64,000 nt of DNA from Leptolyngbya subtilissima AS-A7 (GTDB lineage: Bacteria; Cyanobacteriota; Cyanobacteriia; Phormidesmidales; Phormidesmidaceae): contig NZ_JAMPKY010000007.1 of assembly GCF_039962255.1 (NCBI RefSeq), positions 186,001-250,000 on the forward strand. The letters are read 5' to 3'. A program made the translations under genes and the position numbers. Shown here piece after piece: positions 56,905-62,471 of the stretch; positions within the stretch are counted from its first letter, which is position 1; each line of letters opens with the position of its first letter. The notes under the pieces were generated by a model. That model did not search any database and was not told the DNA's origin. It saw only the letters and a list, made by a program, of their open reading frames with translations.

Positions 56905-57154
56905 GGCAAAAGGTTTAAGCGCAAGGGGGTTAGCCGACCAGGGTCGAGCAATGGTACAGAGTTAAGCTAGGAGTACAGTACCCAAATTTTCTCTAATCGT
57001 TAACTTAATCTAAACGACAGCTCCCCTGGCTGGCGGGAATCCATCATCAAGTTTTTTTGCGATCACTCAGTCGGTCAGCCCAACGCCCTTGTCGACTCAG
57101 GGGCTAAACCAACTGAGAAACTCAGTTCACCACCCTCACCCGACTAGTTGCTCA

Positions 57155-57646
57155 ATGGCCCACATCGTTATTGGTGTCATGGGACCGGGAAGCTCGGCGA
57201 CCCCGGCCCAGGTAAAGGCAGCCTACGCCCTTGGCCATGCCATCGCTTCTGCTGGCTGGGTAGTGCTTACTGGGGGCCGTCAGGTGGGTGTCATGGAGGC
57301 TGCCTGCCAAGGAGCCAAGGCAGCAGGCGGACTCACGGTGGGTATTTTGCCCTCCGCAAATGGGGCCGATTGCTCCGCTGCCGTAGACATTCCCATCCTG
57401 ACAGGCTTAGGGGATGCCCGCAATGTCGTCAACGTGCTGTCGAGCCAGGTAGTCGTGGCCTGCGGGCTCGGTCCCGGCACCGCCGCTGAAATTGCCCTCG
57501 CCCTCAAAGCTCAGCGGCCCGTCATTTTGATGGAAATGCCCCCCAGCGCGATCGCCCTGTGGCAGAGTTTAGCGACCGGGCCGTTGGCGATCGCCGACAC
57601 CGTTGCTGCCGCCATAGAGCAAATCCAGCAGTGGCTAGCACCCTGA
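57155..57646 (+). CDS. LOG-like (SLOG, TIGR00725-type) protein
   Basis: 163 residues. A Rossmann-like fold with IGVMGPGSSATPAQVKAAYALG near the N terminus, VVLTGGRQVGVMEAACQGAKAAGG, DARNVVNVLSS and the nucleotide loop GLGPGTAAEIALAL in place of the PGGxGT(x)2E of cytokinin-activating LOG proteins. The family binds nucleotides; no activity is established for this branch. The ATG at 57155 (MAHIVIG) is used; the open frame before it lacks family character. It is cytosolic. Confidence 0.85.
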   Translation: MAHIVIGVMGPGSSATPAQVKAAYALGHAIASAGWVVLTGGRQVGVMEAACQGAKAAGGLTVGILPSANGADCSAAVDIPILTGLGDARNVVNVLSSQVVVACGLGPGTAAEIALALKAQRPVILMEMPPSAIALWQSLATGPLAIADTVAAAIEQIQQWLAP

Positions 57647-57806: not shown

Positions 57807-58082
57807 ATGACCGACAACCAACCGTCCCCCAAGGAAAACTTTCTCTTCCCCCGCAGTAAATATTGGGGTGAATTTACGCCTCAGCAGCTAGCCTTTAATG
57901 CTAATTTGCAAGAATTTGCTCAGCGGGTTTCCTTAGTCTGCAACCTTGAAACCGGCGGCAAAATGTCGGCTGACGAAGCCTACGATGAAATCAAGCGCTT
58001 GTGGAAAGACCTAAAGACCTCCAAGGCCAATTTGCTAGATGCCAAAGCCTCCCCTCCGCCAGAGCTACCCCCCGAAGCCTAG
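57807..58082 (+). CDS. Small conserved cyanobacterial protein (DUF7219-like)
   Basis: 91 residues, soluble and helical. ENFLFPRSKYWGEFTPQQLAFNANLQEFAQRV and CNLETGGKMSADEAYDEIKRLWKDLK form a compact domain I recognise as recurrent in cyanobacteria, probably the family named DUF7219. The function is unknown. It starts with ATG at 57807; a proline-rich tail ends the protein. Both neighbours are separated by about 160-200 bp, so it is probably transcribed alone. Confidence 0.78.
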   Translation: MTDNQPSPKENFLFPRSKYWGEFTPQQLAFNANLQEFAQRVSLVCNLETGGKMSADEAYDEIKRLWKDLKTSKANLLDAKASPPPELPPEA

Positions 58083-58281: not shown

Positions 58282-59556
58282 CTAAAACGCCGAGGAGGCC
58301 AACCAAAAGCTGACCAAGAATCCGGCAATGGTTGAGAATGTCACCGAGCCACCACCCATTTCGTAGGCTTCGGGCATCATGGTGCTGGCGACCATGGCGA
58401 GAATGGCCCCTCCGGCGGTGGCTTTGGCCATGGCCAGCATCCATTCAGACGCCACCGGCACCAGCTGACTGCCGACCATAGCTACTAATCCGCTGAGCAG
58501 CACCGCACCGCCCCACAGCGCCAAAATTCGCTGGGCCGAGGTGCCCGCCTGGCGCATGCCAATGGAGCTCGACATCGCCTCAGGAATGTTGGAGATAAAC
58601 ACCGCCATCAAAAATGACGCTCCCGTATGGCCTGTGCCCACGTGAAAGCCGATCACCAAAGCCTCGGGAATATTGTCGATCATGGTGCCCACCAAAATGG
58701 CCAGGGGGGCCGAGCTTTGGGCCAGCTCCTTAAACTGCTGCTCTGAGATGGGGATATCGACCTCAACGCTATCGAGCACCTGCCGCCGCCAGTGGTCATC
58801 ATCCACCGGAACAAGCTTGGCGGTGGACTGGGTGGTTTCGCGCAGCCGCCGGGCCAGAATGCGGCTCAGCCCGCTGGAGAGCTGAGGGGCGTAGGTGAGC
58901 ATGGCGTCGAAATCGGCCTTGTCGAGTTCGTAGAGCTCCATAGAGGTCTTAGCGACAACTGTGGCCGATCGCTCTTCTCCAGTCAGCAGCGCCATCTCGC
59001 CAAAGATTTCCCCAGAGCCCAGAGCGGCCAACCGCTGGGGGCCTTTGTAGATCTCAGCATCCCCCTCCACGATGAGGAACATGGAGTCGCCAGGAGCACC
59101 CTCCTGGCATAGCACCATCCCCGCCTCGACCTGGAGCGGCTTGAGCAGGGGAATAATTGCCTGCATTTCGTCAGGGGAAAGACTGTGAAGCACTTCGATG
59201 TGGCCAATGCGATCGAGCACCTCAGAGGCTTCATCCTGGCGGTGGTGGTAGAGAAACCGCCGCGACGACGACGGGTGGCGAATAAAGCCCCCCTGGTTGT
59301 CGATGTAGCCCACAATGACGGAAAACAGGGTGCCGCCCAGGGCAAAACCTGCCACCAGCGGCAAAAATCCGCTGCTCTGGTAGGCGGGCAGGGTAATGTC
59401 GAAGGCGATTGCAGAGAGCAGCGTGCCGCTGCCAAAGGCCATAATGGCCGCTGTGATCGATCGCGCCGGTCGCCAGGCAATCCCTAAAATGGCCCCTACT
59501 AGCAAGCTAGAGGCAGCCAACAACCCTTGAACTAGCGCAGCAATGGGAACGCTCAT
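58282..59556 (-). CDS. ZIP-family permease with an inserted cyclic-nucleotide-binding domain
   Basis: 424 residues. Three N-terminal membrane spans (up to about 85) and five C-terminal spans (about 270-420) have the ZIP order, with TMIDNIPEALVIGFHVG and FISNIPEAMSSS at the positions of the HNxPEG and HExPHE metal motifs. Between span 3 and span 4, at about 115-235, lies a complete CAP-like cNMP domain (VLHSLSPDEMQAIIPLLKPLQVEAGMVLCQEGAPGDSMFLIVEGDAEI ... LGSGEIFGEMALLTGEERSATVVA). The metal histidines of canonical ZIP are Asp/Asn or Ser/Asn here. It is probably a metal or related cation permease gated by cAMP or cGMP, which is inference. ATG at 59556. Confidence 0.9.
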   Translation of the reverse strand: MSVPIAALVQGLLAASSLLVGAILGIAWRPARSITAAIMAFGSGTLLSAIAFDITLPAYQSSGFLPLVAGFALGGTLFSVIVGYIDNQGGFIRHPSSSRRFLYHHRQDEASEVLDRIGHIEVLHSLSPDEMQAIIPLLKPLQVEAGMVLCQEGAPGDSMFLIVEGDAEIYKGPQRLAALGSGEIFGEMALLTGEERSATVVAKTSMELYELDKADFDAMLTYAPQLSSGLSRILARRLRETTQSTAKLVPVDDDHWRRQVLDSVEVDIPISEQQFKELAQSSAPLAILVGTMIDNIPEALVIGFHVGTGHTGASFLMAVFISNIPEAMSSSIGMRQAGTSAQRILALWGGAVLLSGLVAMVGSQLVPVASEWMLAMAKATAGGAILAMVASTMMPEAYEMGGGSVTFSTIAGFLVSFWLASSAF

Positions 59557-59655: not shown

Positions 59656-60225
59656 ATGAACCAACCGACCCAGCGCCGTCGCTCCGGCTTCAATCGTCAA
59701 CCGCGTCAGCGTCAGACGAGACGGCCCTCCAACCGCCGCCCCTTTTTTGGATTGTGGCTGCTGTGCGGCCTGCTCTACGCCGTCGCTGGCCTAATTTTGA
59801 CCTCCCTGGCCAACCCCTGGATCTGGCTGGTGGCTGCCGGGGGCACCGTAGTGCAGGGGACAACCTTAGCTGGTCCCGAAGCGCTAAAGCGATTTCGGTG
59901 GCTGACAGCCAATCTGTTGGTGCTGGGCAGCATCGTGGGGGGTACAGCCCTAGCGGTGGCGCTCTCGATCGCCCTCAACCACCTGGGCACCGACAACCTC
60001 GATGAACTCACCCTCGGCAGAGCATTTTTGGAAATAGTGCTCTACAGTCTGCTGGCGGTACTGCTAGCAGTACTGTGCAGCCTAACGACGGCGGCCCTGG
60101 GCGATCGCCTGCTGCGGCGCAATAAAGGCAGCAGAACCAGCCTGATTTTGCTGCTGACCTGTCTGCTGGGGCTGGGGTTGGGGGGCGCAATCGGGCTGCT
60201 AATTACCAGGCTGCCCGTCGCTTAG
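59656..60225 (+). CDS. Small membrane protein of unknown function
   Basis: 189 residues. A basic, Arg/Gln-rich N terminus (residues 1-30) is followed by four membrane spans (about 32-52, 55-75, 85-108, 125-150) and a fifth near the C terminus (LILLLTCLLGLGLGGAIGLLI). I do not recognise the family. The ATG is at 59656; the stop overlaps the stop of the caspase-like gene on the other strand by 4 bp. It lies divergent to the ZIP-cNMP gene, about 100 bp away. The conserved coding pattern and membrane topology support a real gene. Confidence 0.75.
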   Translation: MNQPTQRRRSGFNRQPRQRQTRRPSNRRPFFGLWLLCGLLYAVAGLILTSLANPWIWLVAAGGTVVQGTTLAGPEALKRFRWLTANLLVLGSIVGGTALAVALSIALNHLGTDNLDELTLGRAFLEIVLYSLLAVLLAVLCSLTTAALGDRLLRRNKGSRTSLILLLTCLLGLGLGGAIGLLITRLPVA

Positions 60226-62471
60226 GCAATGGCGTAGCGAAAACTGAGGGTGGCCCAGCGATCGTGGTGCAGGGCGTAGTAGTCAGCGGCAGGCTTTCTC
60301 TCCTCGTCAGAGCTGGTGCTGAGGTCTTGTAGCAGCGCTTGGGCCAGCCGCAGGGGCTGGGGCACCGGGCGAAAACCTGTAGCCAGCGATGGGGGATCGT
60401 CTCCCAGCACGGCTAGGCACTGATCCAGAGGCTGGGTGCTGAGAATGACGTAAGCTTCTACCCAGGTGGCCACCCCCGGCATGGCCCAGCCAGCCCCATC
60501 GGCGGGAATAGAAATGAGCTGCCCCGGTGATAGGGGAAGGGCAACGGGCGGAACTTCGGCCCCATCAGCGGCGATCGCATCAGGCAATGTGACCAAGGCG
60601 TTGCATTCTCCCCGGCTGTCAAAGCTAATCCACAGCAGGTGGAGGATTTGGGTCGAGGTGTTGGCTAAGCGGTAGCCGATACGGCCATCGCGGGGCAGCA
60701 TAATCGGGTCATCGGTCGCCGACCTTTGGGCCTGTCGAATGGCTAGGGGCCAGGTGACGGCAGGGCTGCGCTCGGTAAGCTGCACCAGCAGCGGCATGGG
60801 CTTGGGCTGCACCGCCTCTAGCAGCGCCGCCGCCCCCACCTGGGAGGCCCCATGGTTTTCGGTCAATCGCACTAGCTTAAGAGCCAGCAGGGTTTGCAGG
60901 TAAGGAGTAAGCCGGTTGACCGTTGTTTTCACCGCCTCTTCTTTGGCCAGCATGGTGCCAGGCAGCAGGGTGCGGTTGGGGGCAAACAGCCCATAGCTGC
61001 TCTCCGCAGAGCGTTCTCCCCCCTGGGAGGCTCCCCGAGCATCGCTATCCAACTTAGGCGAGGCCTCGCCAGCATTGGGTAGGGCAGCGGTGAGGGTGGG
61101 GGCTGGGCCAGTAGGCAGTCGGCCAAATAGGCAATCAGCGGCCTTTTCACCAGCGGTCACCGAGGTCACCAGGGGAATGCTCGACAGGGCGCTAGTAGCA
61201 TCTACCCGCTCCACCCGCTTGAGCTGGCTGTCGAGGGCCACAATTAAATCAATGGTTTGGGGCAGCCGCCGCACCTGCTCGAACAGGGGCTGATGGGCGA
61301 TCGCCGGTGGAGAAACCTCGCTCTCCAGAGGCCGGACCACGGCTTTTAAGCCCGTGCGCGACTCCAGCCGTAGGAGCACAGCTGCCCCATCGGCTTCGGC
61401 CATCAGGCGAGAACCGGGCTGTAGGTAACGCAGCACCTGGGGCGGCACACCTCCTAGCCACGCGGTCAAAGGCCGCTCATCGCTGCGCGGCAAAAGCACT
61501 CCTGCCGCTGGCGGCAGCTGGGGCGTTAGGCCGTAGGTCGTTGGGCCAGTGTAAGGCGGTAGGCGATCGCTTAGACCGGGCTGCTGGTCAGCCCCTACCC
61601 AACGCTGGAGTCGCGAACCAGCGCGCTGTATCAAGACCTTAGCCGTGGAGTCAGGTTCTGTTTCCCAAAGGCTCTGGGTGAGGGCGTAGGTGAAGACCCC
61701 AGCGCTAAACCCGTCCCAGTAGCTTTCTAGCACCAGTCGCCCTAGGTCAGCCGCTCGCAGCACTAGCCCTGGCCAGGGAGCGTCTAGCGGCAGGGAAGAT
61801 ATTTCCGTGGGCGACGACACCATACCCGTAGGCACCGTCGGCCGGGATCTAACTCGGGAATTTCCCCAGCGCAGGTAGCCCGCATCCTGACTGCCGGCAT
61901 CGATGACAGTAGTCAGGTTGGCAGTGGCCAGGGACTTGAGCTGAGCAACGATTTCGGCCTCAAGTAGATCGCCCAAAACAGGATTGGCTTCGCTGGGTAG
62001 GCGGCTATCCACTGTTACCCAGGCGGCCTGTAGCGCGTTCGAGGGTTCGGCCCCAACCACTCGCACCTGACTGCCGTAGCCGCTAAAGTGCAGCAGCACA
62101 ACATCGTCGGCCTGGGCCTGCCGCACTAAATGTTCGTCAATGGCAGTCAGAATGTTGGCGCGGGTGGCCTCCTCGTTGATTACCGTGACCACATCCGCTG
62201 ACTGAAAGCCAAAGCGATGCACCAGCAGCTGCCGCTGTAGTTCGACATCGGTGACGCAGCCCCTAAGAGCAATATCTTGGGCTACTCCAGGGTCGAGGGC
62301 GCGATCGGGGTAGGCATTGATGCCAATCAACAGGGCCAGCCGACGACGGGCGGGCTTGGCCAGGGCCTCTTGGTAGCGGCTATAGGTTGTTAGCCAAGCC
62401 GTACCGCCTACTCCCAGCGCTCCTAGGGCCAAGCTTGCCTGCTGCAAAAACGCCCGTCGTTTCAGTGTCAC
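60222..62471 (-). CDS. Tat-type orthocaspase-like protein with altered catalytic dyad
   Basis: 749 residues. The N terminus KRRAFLQQASLALGALGVGG is a twin-arginine signal. The caspase-like p20 region (about 40-200) contains LALLIGINAYPD, FGFQSADVVTVINEEATRANI, LLHFSGYGSQV and TVIDAGSQDAG. In active metacaspases the dyad reads SGHG and DxCHSG; here the His is Tyr (about residue 131) and the Cys is Gly (about 192), so the protein is likely non-proteolytic. The long C terminus (LGYRLANTSTQILHLLWISFDSRGECN and others) is DUF4384-like. GTG at 62471 is the start, 18 bp after the ATP sulfurylase stop on the same strand. Confidence 0.85.
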   Translation of the reverse strand: MTLKRRAFLQQASLALGALGVGGTAWLTTYSRYQEALAKPARRRLALLIGINAYPDRALDPGVAQDIALRGCVTDVELQRQLLVHRFGFQSADVVTVINEEATRANILTAIDEHLVRQAQADDVVLLHFSGYGSQVRVVGAEPSNALQAAWVTVDSRLPSEANPVLGDLLEAEIVAQLKSLATANLTTVIDAGSQDAGYLRWGNSRVRSRPTVPTGMVSSPTEISSLPLDAPWPGLVLRAADLGRLVLESYWDGFSAGVFTYALTQSLWETEPDSTAKVLIQRAGSRLQRWVGADQQPGLSDRLPPYTGPTTYGLTPQLPPAAGVLLPRSDERPLTAWLGGVPPQVLRYLQPGSRLMAEADGAAVLLRLESRTGLKAVVRPLESEVSPPAIAHQPLFEQVRRLPQTIDLIVALDSQLKRVERVDATSALSSIPLVTSVTAGEKAADCLFGRLPTGPAPTLTAALPNAGEASPKLDSDARGASQGGERSAESSYGLFAPNRTLLPGTMLAKEEAVKTTVNRLTPYLQTLLALKLVRLTENHGASQVGAAALLEAVQPKPMPLLVQLTERSPAVTWPLAIRQAQRSATDDPIMLPRDGRIGYRLANTSTQILHLLWISFDSRGECNALVTLPDAIAADGAEVPPVALPLSPGQLISIPADGAGWAMPGVATWVEAYVILSTQPLDQCLAVLGDDPPSLATGFRPVPQPLRLAQALLQDLSTSSDEERKPAADYYALHHDRWATLSFRYAIA

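Follow-up and report, generated by a model that had tools for sequence, protein, structure and literature searches.

Domain architecture of the protein

The window analysed here is a stretch of 64,000 nucleotides from contig NZ_JAMPKY010000007.1 of Leptolyngbya subtilissima AS-A7, a cyanobacterium with a genome of 5.66 Mb. Positions 58282-59556 of its reverse strand hold an open reading frame (ORF) for a protein, here called CNBD-ZIP, in which three transmembrane (TM) helices are followed by an entire cyclic-nucleotide-binding domain (CNBD) and then by five further TM helices (Table 1). The nearest named relatives of the gene come from Nodosilinea-type cyanobacteria. The protein is a predicted ZIP-fold transporter which fails the strict ZIP motifs and carries an internal CNBD with preserved binding residues. 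In Pfam, the window protein matches PF00027 (cNMP_binding) with 72.6 bits versus a cut-off of 27.5 (E-value of 2.7e-20, amino acids (aa) 142-220), and its match to PF02535 (Zip) is sub-threshold (22.4 bits versus a gathering cut-off of 35.1). In the alignment of 36 cyanobacterial rows (A4), which comprises the window protein and 35 homologues, PF00027 is found in all rows and PF02535 in 35 of the 36 (E ≤ 0.01). Relatives lie on both sides of the PF02535 cut-off: among those with one CNBD, L169 scores above it (38.1) and L168 below it (29.6), and among CNBD-free ones, L108 (40.5) and L110 (36.0) are above it and L035, L111 and L146 below it. The preliminary description of this locus placed a complete CAP-like domain between spans 3 and 4, a placement borne out by the PF00027 match and by the predicted helices that flank the CNBD. 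No DNA-binding helix-turn-helix (HTH) domain of the CRP/FNR type was found behind the C-helix in the Pfam list or the structural model, where a low-confidence linker and then TM4 follow. In the connector that enters the CNBD, residues G89, G90, F91, R93, R99 and R100 are invariant in A4; the predicted local distance difference test (pLDDT) score is ~57 at aa 91-110.

Table 1. Features of the CNBD-ZIP gene, in positions of the window
Feature	Position	Strand	Remarks
Whole gene, CNBD-ZIP-like protein	58282-59556	-	424 aa, ATG start
TM1-TM3 (aa 3-87)	59296-59550	-	model helices; alignment A4
Connector GGF[IL]R.....RR and helix entering CNBD (aa 88-117)	59206-59295	-	conservation in A4
CNBD (aa 118-242), beta roll and C-helix	58831-59205	-	PF00027; fold match
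Phosphate-binding cassette (aa 180-200, GSGEIFGEMALLTGEERSATV)	58957-59019	-	conservation of Glu187 and Arg196
Glu187	58996-58998	-	cassette residue, 36/36 in A4
Arg196	58969-58971	-	cassette residue, 36/36 in A4
Arg237 of C-helix	58846-58848	-	36/36 in A4; end points of structural alignments
Return linker (aa 243-272)	58741-58830	-	low model confidence
Helix 273-305 with TM4	58642-58740	-	model
TM4 metal motif DNIPEA (aa 294-299)	58660-58677	-	BbZIP and A4 alignments
TM5 metal motif SNIPEA (aa 322-327)	58576-58593	-	BbZIP and A4 alignments
TM6-TM8 (aa 341-421), STMMPEA in TM7	58294-58536	-	model; alignments

Predicted structure

An AlphaFold2 model built from a 79-row alignment (mean pLDDT of 83.8, predicted TM-score (pTM) of 0.62) superseded an earlier one from 13 rows (pLDDT of 58.1). 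Its helices span residues 3-27, 32-62 and 65-87 before the CNBD, and 273-305, 312-336, 341-365, 371-393 with 395-401, and 404-421 after it. The top VIA-align match is to the zinc transporter BbZIP (7z6m; Z-score of 21.5, root-mean-square deviation of 2.3, 203 residues, model range 2-396), although the folding alignment (A3) held four canonical ZIP rows, which may have helped this match. A profile of the C-terminal half made without canonical rows also matches BbZIP, with E-values from 3.7e-10 to 1.2e-8. The CNBDs of PKA-R, CRP, MlotiK1 and HCN match aa ~95-250 at Z-scores of ~19-20 in VIA-align; the top 50 Foldseek hits are CNBD-bearing chains only, the ZIP match having come from VIA-align. 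Structure prediction, proposed as a check in the preliminary description, thus recovered both folds, the beta roll with C-helix of a CNBD and the eight-TM fold of ZIP transporters, and we conclude that the protein is predicted to adopt the latter. The placing of the CNBD relative to the permease cannot be taken from the model, the confidence values of which do not include inter-domain ones.

The nucleotide-binding site

The phosphate-binding cassette reads FGEMALLTGEERSATV. Glu187, Arg196, Ala198 and the C-helix residue Arg237 are each conserved in 36 of the 36 rows of A4, and Ser197 in 35. In such cassettes, Glu binds the ribose 2'-OH and Arg the phosphate. Arg237 falls at the place of MlotiK1 Arg348, judged by where the structural alignments end: model residue 239 corresponds to chain residue 350 in 1vp6 and 3clp, and 238 to 349 in 3cl1. 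In MlotiK1, Arg348 caps the base. The Ser following the cassette Arg presumably does not decide between cAMP and cGMP. The conservation pattern suggests that the CNBD is an apparently intact cyclic-nucleotide sensor.

The relatives with two CNBDs differ in this respect. Glu is present in none of the 16 first and 7 of the 16 second domains, Arg in two of the first and one of the second, and the two residues occur together in none of the 32 domains of these 16 proteins. The Glu/Arg pair is thus not kept merely by the fold; among the rows examined, conservation indicates that it is retained in one-CNBD proteins only. The same relatives bear on an alternative, namely, that the CNBD serves for structure or dimerisation, or recognises another small ligand, with no gating of the transporter by cAMP or cGMP. 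Because the tandem inserts persist although all 32 domains lack the pair, an insert can be kept without canonical binding; yet the one-CNBD rows all keep Glu187, Arg196 and Arg237, in a cassette of the cNMP-binding type, and we regard this alternative as unlikely.

Distribution and phylogeny

A scan of named genomes returned 342 stretches with 259 relatives; the counts given here rest on the best 80 of the 259. These include 53 loci with a full-length one-CNBD gene, 12 with two CNBDs, nine without a CNBD and six others, either split, partial or ambiguous, that were left out of these classes. All one-CNBD loci are cyanobacterial except for L095, named Candidatus Gracilibacteria. Since L095 has two neighbour clusters in common with Hydrococcus L092, it is probably a mis-binned cyanobacterial contig. 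Within the genus, a full-length ORF (424-486 aa) is found in 22 of the 25 other genomes, and a broken one in G021. Across the phylum the distribution is patchy: eight of the 386 cyanobacterial genomes, the host genome included, carry a full-length one-CNBD gene, perhaps an undercount, as at most 10 first-look candidates were scored per genome. The other 18 of the 26 positive genomes contain two-CNBD genes (2), CNBD-free genes (7, one of them short), broken or partial genes (4) and canonical ZIPs (5).

Median dN/dS values (nonsynonymous to synonymous substitution rates) of 0.102 for TM1-3, 0.081 for the CNBD and 0.099 for TM4-8, obtained from eight close rows (27-28 pairs each) at a dS of ~1.3, which is near saturation, indicate purifying selection on the protein, with a value for the CNBD that does not exceed those of the TM parts. 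Given low dN/dS and an architecture that recurs at full length, the gene is not a chance product. A chance fusion or misassembly was ruled out by the recurrence of the full-length one-CNBD form in the 53 of 80 kept loci and the eight of 386 genomes.

A tree of 74 rows was computed with only the TM parts of the sequences. In it, the 36 one-CNBD rows form one side of a branch (support 100/99) and the 16 CNBD-free rows one side of a separate branch (98/92). The 16 two-CNBD rows make up the remainder next to the root and form no supported clade. Rooting on canonical ZIPs is unreliable, as the branch it depends on is 4.84 changes per column long; the tree program also gave a warning that long branches meet. 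Thus, the tree does not tell which form came first.

Several degraded or divergent members were observed. The broken one-CNBD genes, split over frames, are L107/L049 (G021) and L078/L031 (G048, a putative pair), in Nodosilinea BSH.14 and Leptolyngbya RL_3_1, and the CNBD-free copy L144 (G184) has an internal stop. L036 (G008:C1:3395368-3395787), from a genus-mate, encodes a very divergent CNBD-free ZIP-like protein of 231 aa with DGIPEN and SNLPEA motifs, on a tree branch of 4.58. The two-CNBD members L032, L033 and L112-L131 carry tandem CNBDs at the same loop and come from cyanobacteria and proteobacteria.

The metal site

Site residues were mapped by profile alignment to BbZIP and by a MAFFT alignment with canonical rows bridged to BbZIP. 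The motifs DNIPEA and SNIPEA are present as first described, but the comparison of the second with HExPHE, which is the LIV-1 motif, is wrong for the bacterial TM5. BbZIP and the host's own canonical ZIP (L001) have QDxPEG and QNxPEG at this position, and the change in TM5 is therefore from Gln to Ser. In TM4, His177 of BbZIP is replaced by Asp294, while Asn178 and Glu181 correspond to Asn295 and Glu298. Across A4, the His-to-Asp change is found in 36/36 rows, Asn in 33 (Gly in three), and Pro and Glu in all, which departs from HNxPEG. In TM5, Gln207 and Asp208 are replaced by Ser322 and Asn323, with Glu211 retained as Glu326; the motif is SN[IF]PE, with Ser first in 36/36 rows and Asn, Pro and Glu kept, and departs from [HQ][ND]xPEG. 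Met99 corresponds to Leu46, and neither His nor Met is found at aligned site positions. The exit-site residue Glu276 in TM7 is replaced by Thr392 in 36/36 rows. The counterpart of Glu240 is S355 by profile alignment and A359 by MAFFT columns, neither of which is acidic, and Asp144 has no safe counterpart by these alignments.

The site is thus built from carboxylates, amides and one hydroxyl, a composition that suggests a harder cation than Zn2+, possibly Mn2+-like or another divalent. In ZIP8, residues other than His at an entrance filter have been tied to the ability to carry Mn, Fe and Cd in addition to Zn (PMC10372143). All 14 CNBD-free proteins compared have Asp first in the TM4 motif, and Ser (11) or Ala (3) first in that of TM5; CNBD-free L148 has Thr at the latter position. 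The relatives with Ala for Ser in the TM5 motif (ANYPEA, ANFPEA, ANIPEG) include L119, L125, L127, L130, L143, L146, L147 and L149. The TM5 Ser is, accordingly, not fixed across the wider branch. The altered metal choice supposed in the preliminary description is plausible in view of the missing His and Met, but it does not go with the fusion. Relatives without a CNBD have the His-to-Asp change too, which makes it a feature of the wider branch that is unconnected with gating.

These replacements raise the possibility that the protein acts as a transceptor or as a receptor in the membrane. Its ZIP-like part would then have ceased to move metal and would bind metal or nothing, with the CNBD signalling to partners or setting protein stability. 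His177, Met99, Gln207, Asp208 and exit Glu276 of BbZIP are indeed all replaced (by D, L, S, N and T, respectively), and no conserved operon accompanies the gene. However, D294, E298, S322, N323 and E326 are invariant in all 36 rows, the TM parts evolve at a dN/dS of ~0.1, and the D..PE and SN.PE framework is also present in nine CNBD-free proteins from Bacillota and Actinomycetota, which looks like a retained transport site. A receptor is, in our estimate, improbable.

Probable orthologue in Synechocystis

In genome G163, the gene order is one-CNBD gene (+), recA (-), a MacB-like gene (+), fur (-) and purH (+). G163 and G178 belong to one coded genus, and the G178 protein is identical to that of L098 from Synechocystis salina, which has the same fur gene downstream. 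In locus names of strain PCC 6803, slr and sll denote the two strands; purH is slr0597. In the same strain, recA is sll0569 (PMC5101192), furA is sll0567 (PMC3516471), and slr0593 appears in a single table line as a 'cAMP binding membrane protein', a line that does not state a ZIP nature (PMC3516471). As the block of numbers and the strands agree, slr0593 is probably the orthologue of the CNBD-ZIP gene, by its gene order beside recA and fur. A point against this link is that the order is not constant in the coded genus: in G106, the one-CNBD gene is not adjacent to recA and fur but has dapB on one side and, on the other, a gene close to one for a CobN/Mg-chelatase. There are surveys of the cNMP-binding proteins of cyanobacteria, which may include slr0593.

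A model for gating by cyclic nucleotides

The ZIP scaffold comprises TM2, TM3, TM7 and TM8, and the transport domain TM1, TM4, TM5 and TM6 (PMC9278863). With TM3 in the scaffold, TM4 in the transport domain and the CNBD between them, the CNBD would belong to the cytosolic tether between them. The TM3-TM4 loop of BbZIP has been proposed to sense cytosolic zinc and so to limit uptake, with His149 and His151 as residues of the sensor (PMC10256678). L001, which aligns to BbZIP over 240 residues, keeps PHEH in that loop, and the TM3-TM4 connection of the CNBD protein has no PHEH-like histidine run.

We therefore propose, with modest confidence, a ZIP-fold (elevator) secondary transporter gated by cAMP (or cGMP) at its internal CNBD. 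In this mechanism, the CNBD would take the place of the BbZIP histidine loop and join the fixed scaffold to the moving transport domain. The bound nucleotide would set the opening and closing of the elevator: ligand-driven movement of the C-helix would exert a pull on the TM4 side or release it, which in turn would favour or hinder the inward-facing state. Direct gating of this kind is on balance probable; for it we infer nucleotide binding, cAMP over cGMP as ligand, the coupling and its direction or sign, as well as the cargo. The direct control by cAMP or cGMP claimed in the preliminary description has gained likelihood from the Glu/Arg pair in 36/36 rows, the position in the loop and the cyclases of the genome, while the gating itself remains a deduction. 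PF00211, the family of class III cyclases, is matched 14 times (13 open frames) in the host genome. cAMP is described as a high-carbon signal in cyanobacteria, where it is reported to prevent formation of the SbtA-SbtB complex (PMC10117731), so that an action of cAMP at a transporter has a precedent. A more specific reading is tentative and somewhat less probable, namely, that the metal-sensing loop has given way to a functional cAMP sensor which tethers the fixed and moving domains, so that carbon or light signalling through cAMP directly controls how much of a divalent cation other than zinc (e.g. Mn2+) is transported in cyanobacteria, including Synechocystis through slr0593. It is very improbable that the protein is a plain metal importer whose loop controls only turnover or membrane placement and does not gate transport directly, since such routes are eukaryotic and the insert here is a folded domain from a family of ligand binders.

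Several observations weigh against cyclic-nucleotide gating of a metal transporter. The return linker has a pLDDT below 50 at aa 243-255 and 257-271, and this very low model confidence leaves mechanical coupling with no direct support. The Thr in place of the TM7 exit Glu could mean weak or no metal transport. PF00211 occurs in 18 of 18 further cyanobacterial genomes, 10 with and eight without the one-CNBD gene, so that the presence of cyclases is permissive only. No conserved neighbours pointing to metal or cAMP were found among the kept loci by crude gene calling. Clusters present in 16-29 loci include none of the 22 deeper one-CNBD loci, among which no cluster but the gene itself occurs in more than four by the same gene calling; isolated neighbours are a cation-efflux gene adjoining L075 and the Fur gene near L098, both confirmed with Pfam. 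The slr0593 mRNA falls under iron deprivation (log2 of -1.32 at 3 h and -1.35 at 12 h), together with an antisense RNA (PMC3516471); should slr0593 be the orthologue, this response is at odds with a role in iron import. Finally, no binding, transport or mutant data were found in the literature searched. Titles and abstract openings among the matches listed, with supplements and subscription papers outside their scope, contained no ZIP with a CNBD, and an earlier description is possible.

If cyclic-nucleotide gating holds, cyanobacterial cAMP gains a direct membrane effector linked to metal supply, and slr0593, probably the same gene, receives a concrete function to test in a laboratory strain. 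Allosteric input would then be built into the connection between scaffold and transport domain, making the coupling of ligand and elevator directly measurable. The relatives provide natural controls, with no CNBD, with one CNBD and its binding residues, or with two CNBDs that lack them.

Flanking genes in the window

On one flank of the CNBD-ZIP gene lies a gene for a caspase-domain protein (PF00656, 5.6e-16) of 749 aa at 60222-62471 (-), with a 189-aa ORF between the two; its N-terminus has a weak, sub-threshold match to a twin-arginine signal. On the other flank are genes for a DUF7219 protein at 57807-58082 (+) and an SLOG cluster 4 (LDcluster4) protein at 57089-57646 (+). DUF7219- and LDcluster4-like genes adjoin the CNBD-ZIP gene in 6-8 loci, from close relatives only.

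Comparison with known systems

Cation transporters with cyclic-nucleotide-type domains include the sperm Na+/H+ exchanger SLC9C1 and the CNNM Mg transporters, the folds of which differ from ZIP and in which the domain lies towards the C-terminus. The novelty of the present protein is limited accordingly, as cation exchangers with such domains are known elsewhere (SLC9C1). The CNNM CNBH domain is not known to bind cyclic nucleotides; the CNNM2 CNBH model PF25562 weakly matches nine of the 36 CNBD-ZIP rows. The CNBD fold is shared with the MlotiK1 and SthK channels, CRP and the PKA regulatory subunit, with 32-33% identity to MlotiK1 CNBD entries. Whereas those proteins couple it to a channel, an HTH or a kinase partner, here it sits inside a transporter.

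The closest structural counterpart of the permease is BbZIP of Bordetella bronchiseptica (ZIP family, GufA subfamily), with the same eight-helix fold and with N, P and E of TM4 and P and E of TM5 aligned. Unlike BbZIP, the CNBD protein lacks His, Met and Gln at the aligned site positions, has Thr for the exit Glu, and joins TM3 to TM4 by ~185 residues including the CNBD instead of a short histidine loop. A Deinococcus taeanensis protein annotated as 'ZIP family zinc transporter' (WP_225523609.1; 34% identity, query 229-417) shares motifs of this type (DGIPES and SNLPEG), but has no CNBD and is absent from the tree. The nine CNBD-free loci are 41-50% identical in the C-terminal half; on the tree, CNBD-free relatives (16 rows) form a separate group. 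The two-CNBD relatives (e.g. from Calothrix, Xenococcus, Thiocapsa and alpha- and gammaproteobacterial metagenome-assembled genomes) have the insert at the same loop and, for 12 loci, 42-47% identity in the C-terminal half; they differ in their tandem CNBDs, their length of ~610-720 aa and the absence of the Glu/Arg pair from each of the 32 domains examined.
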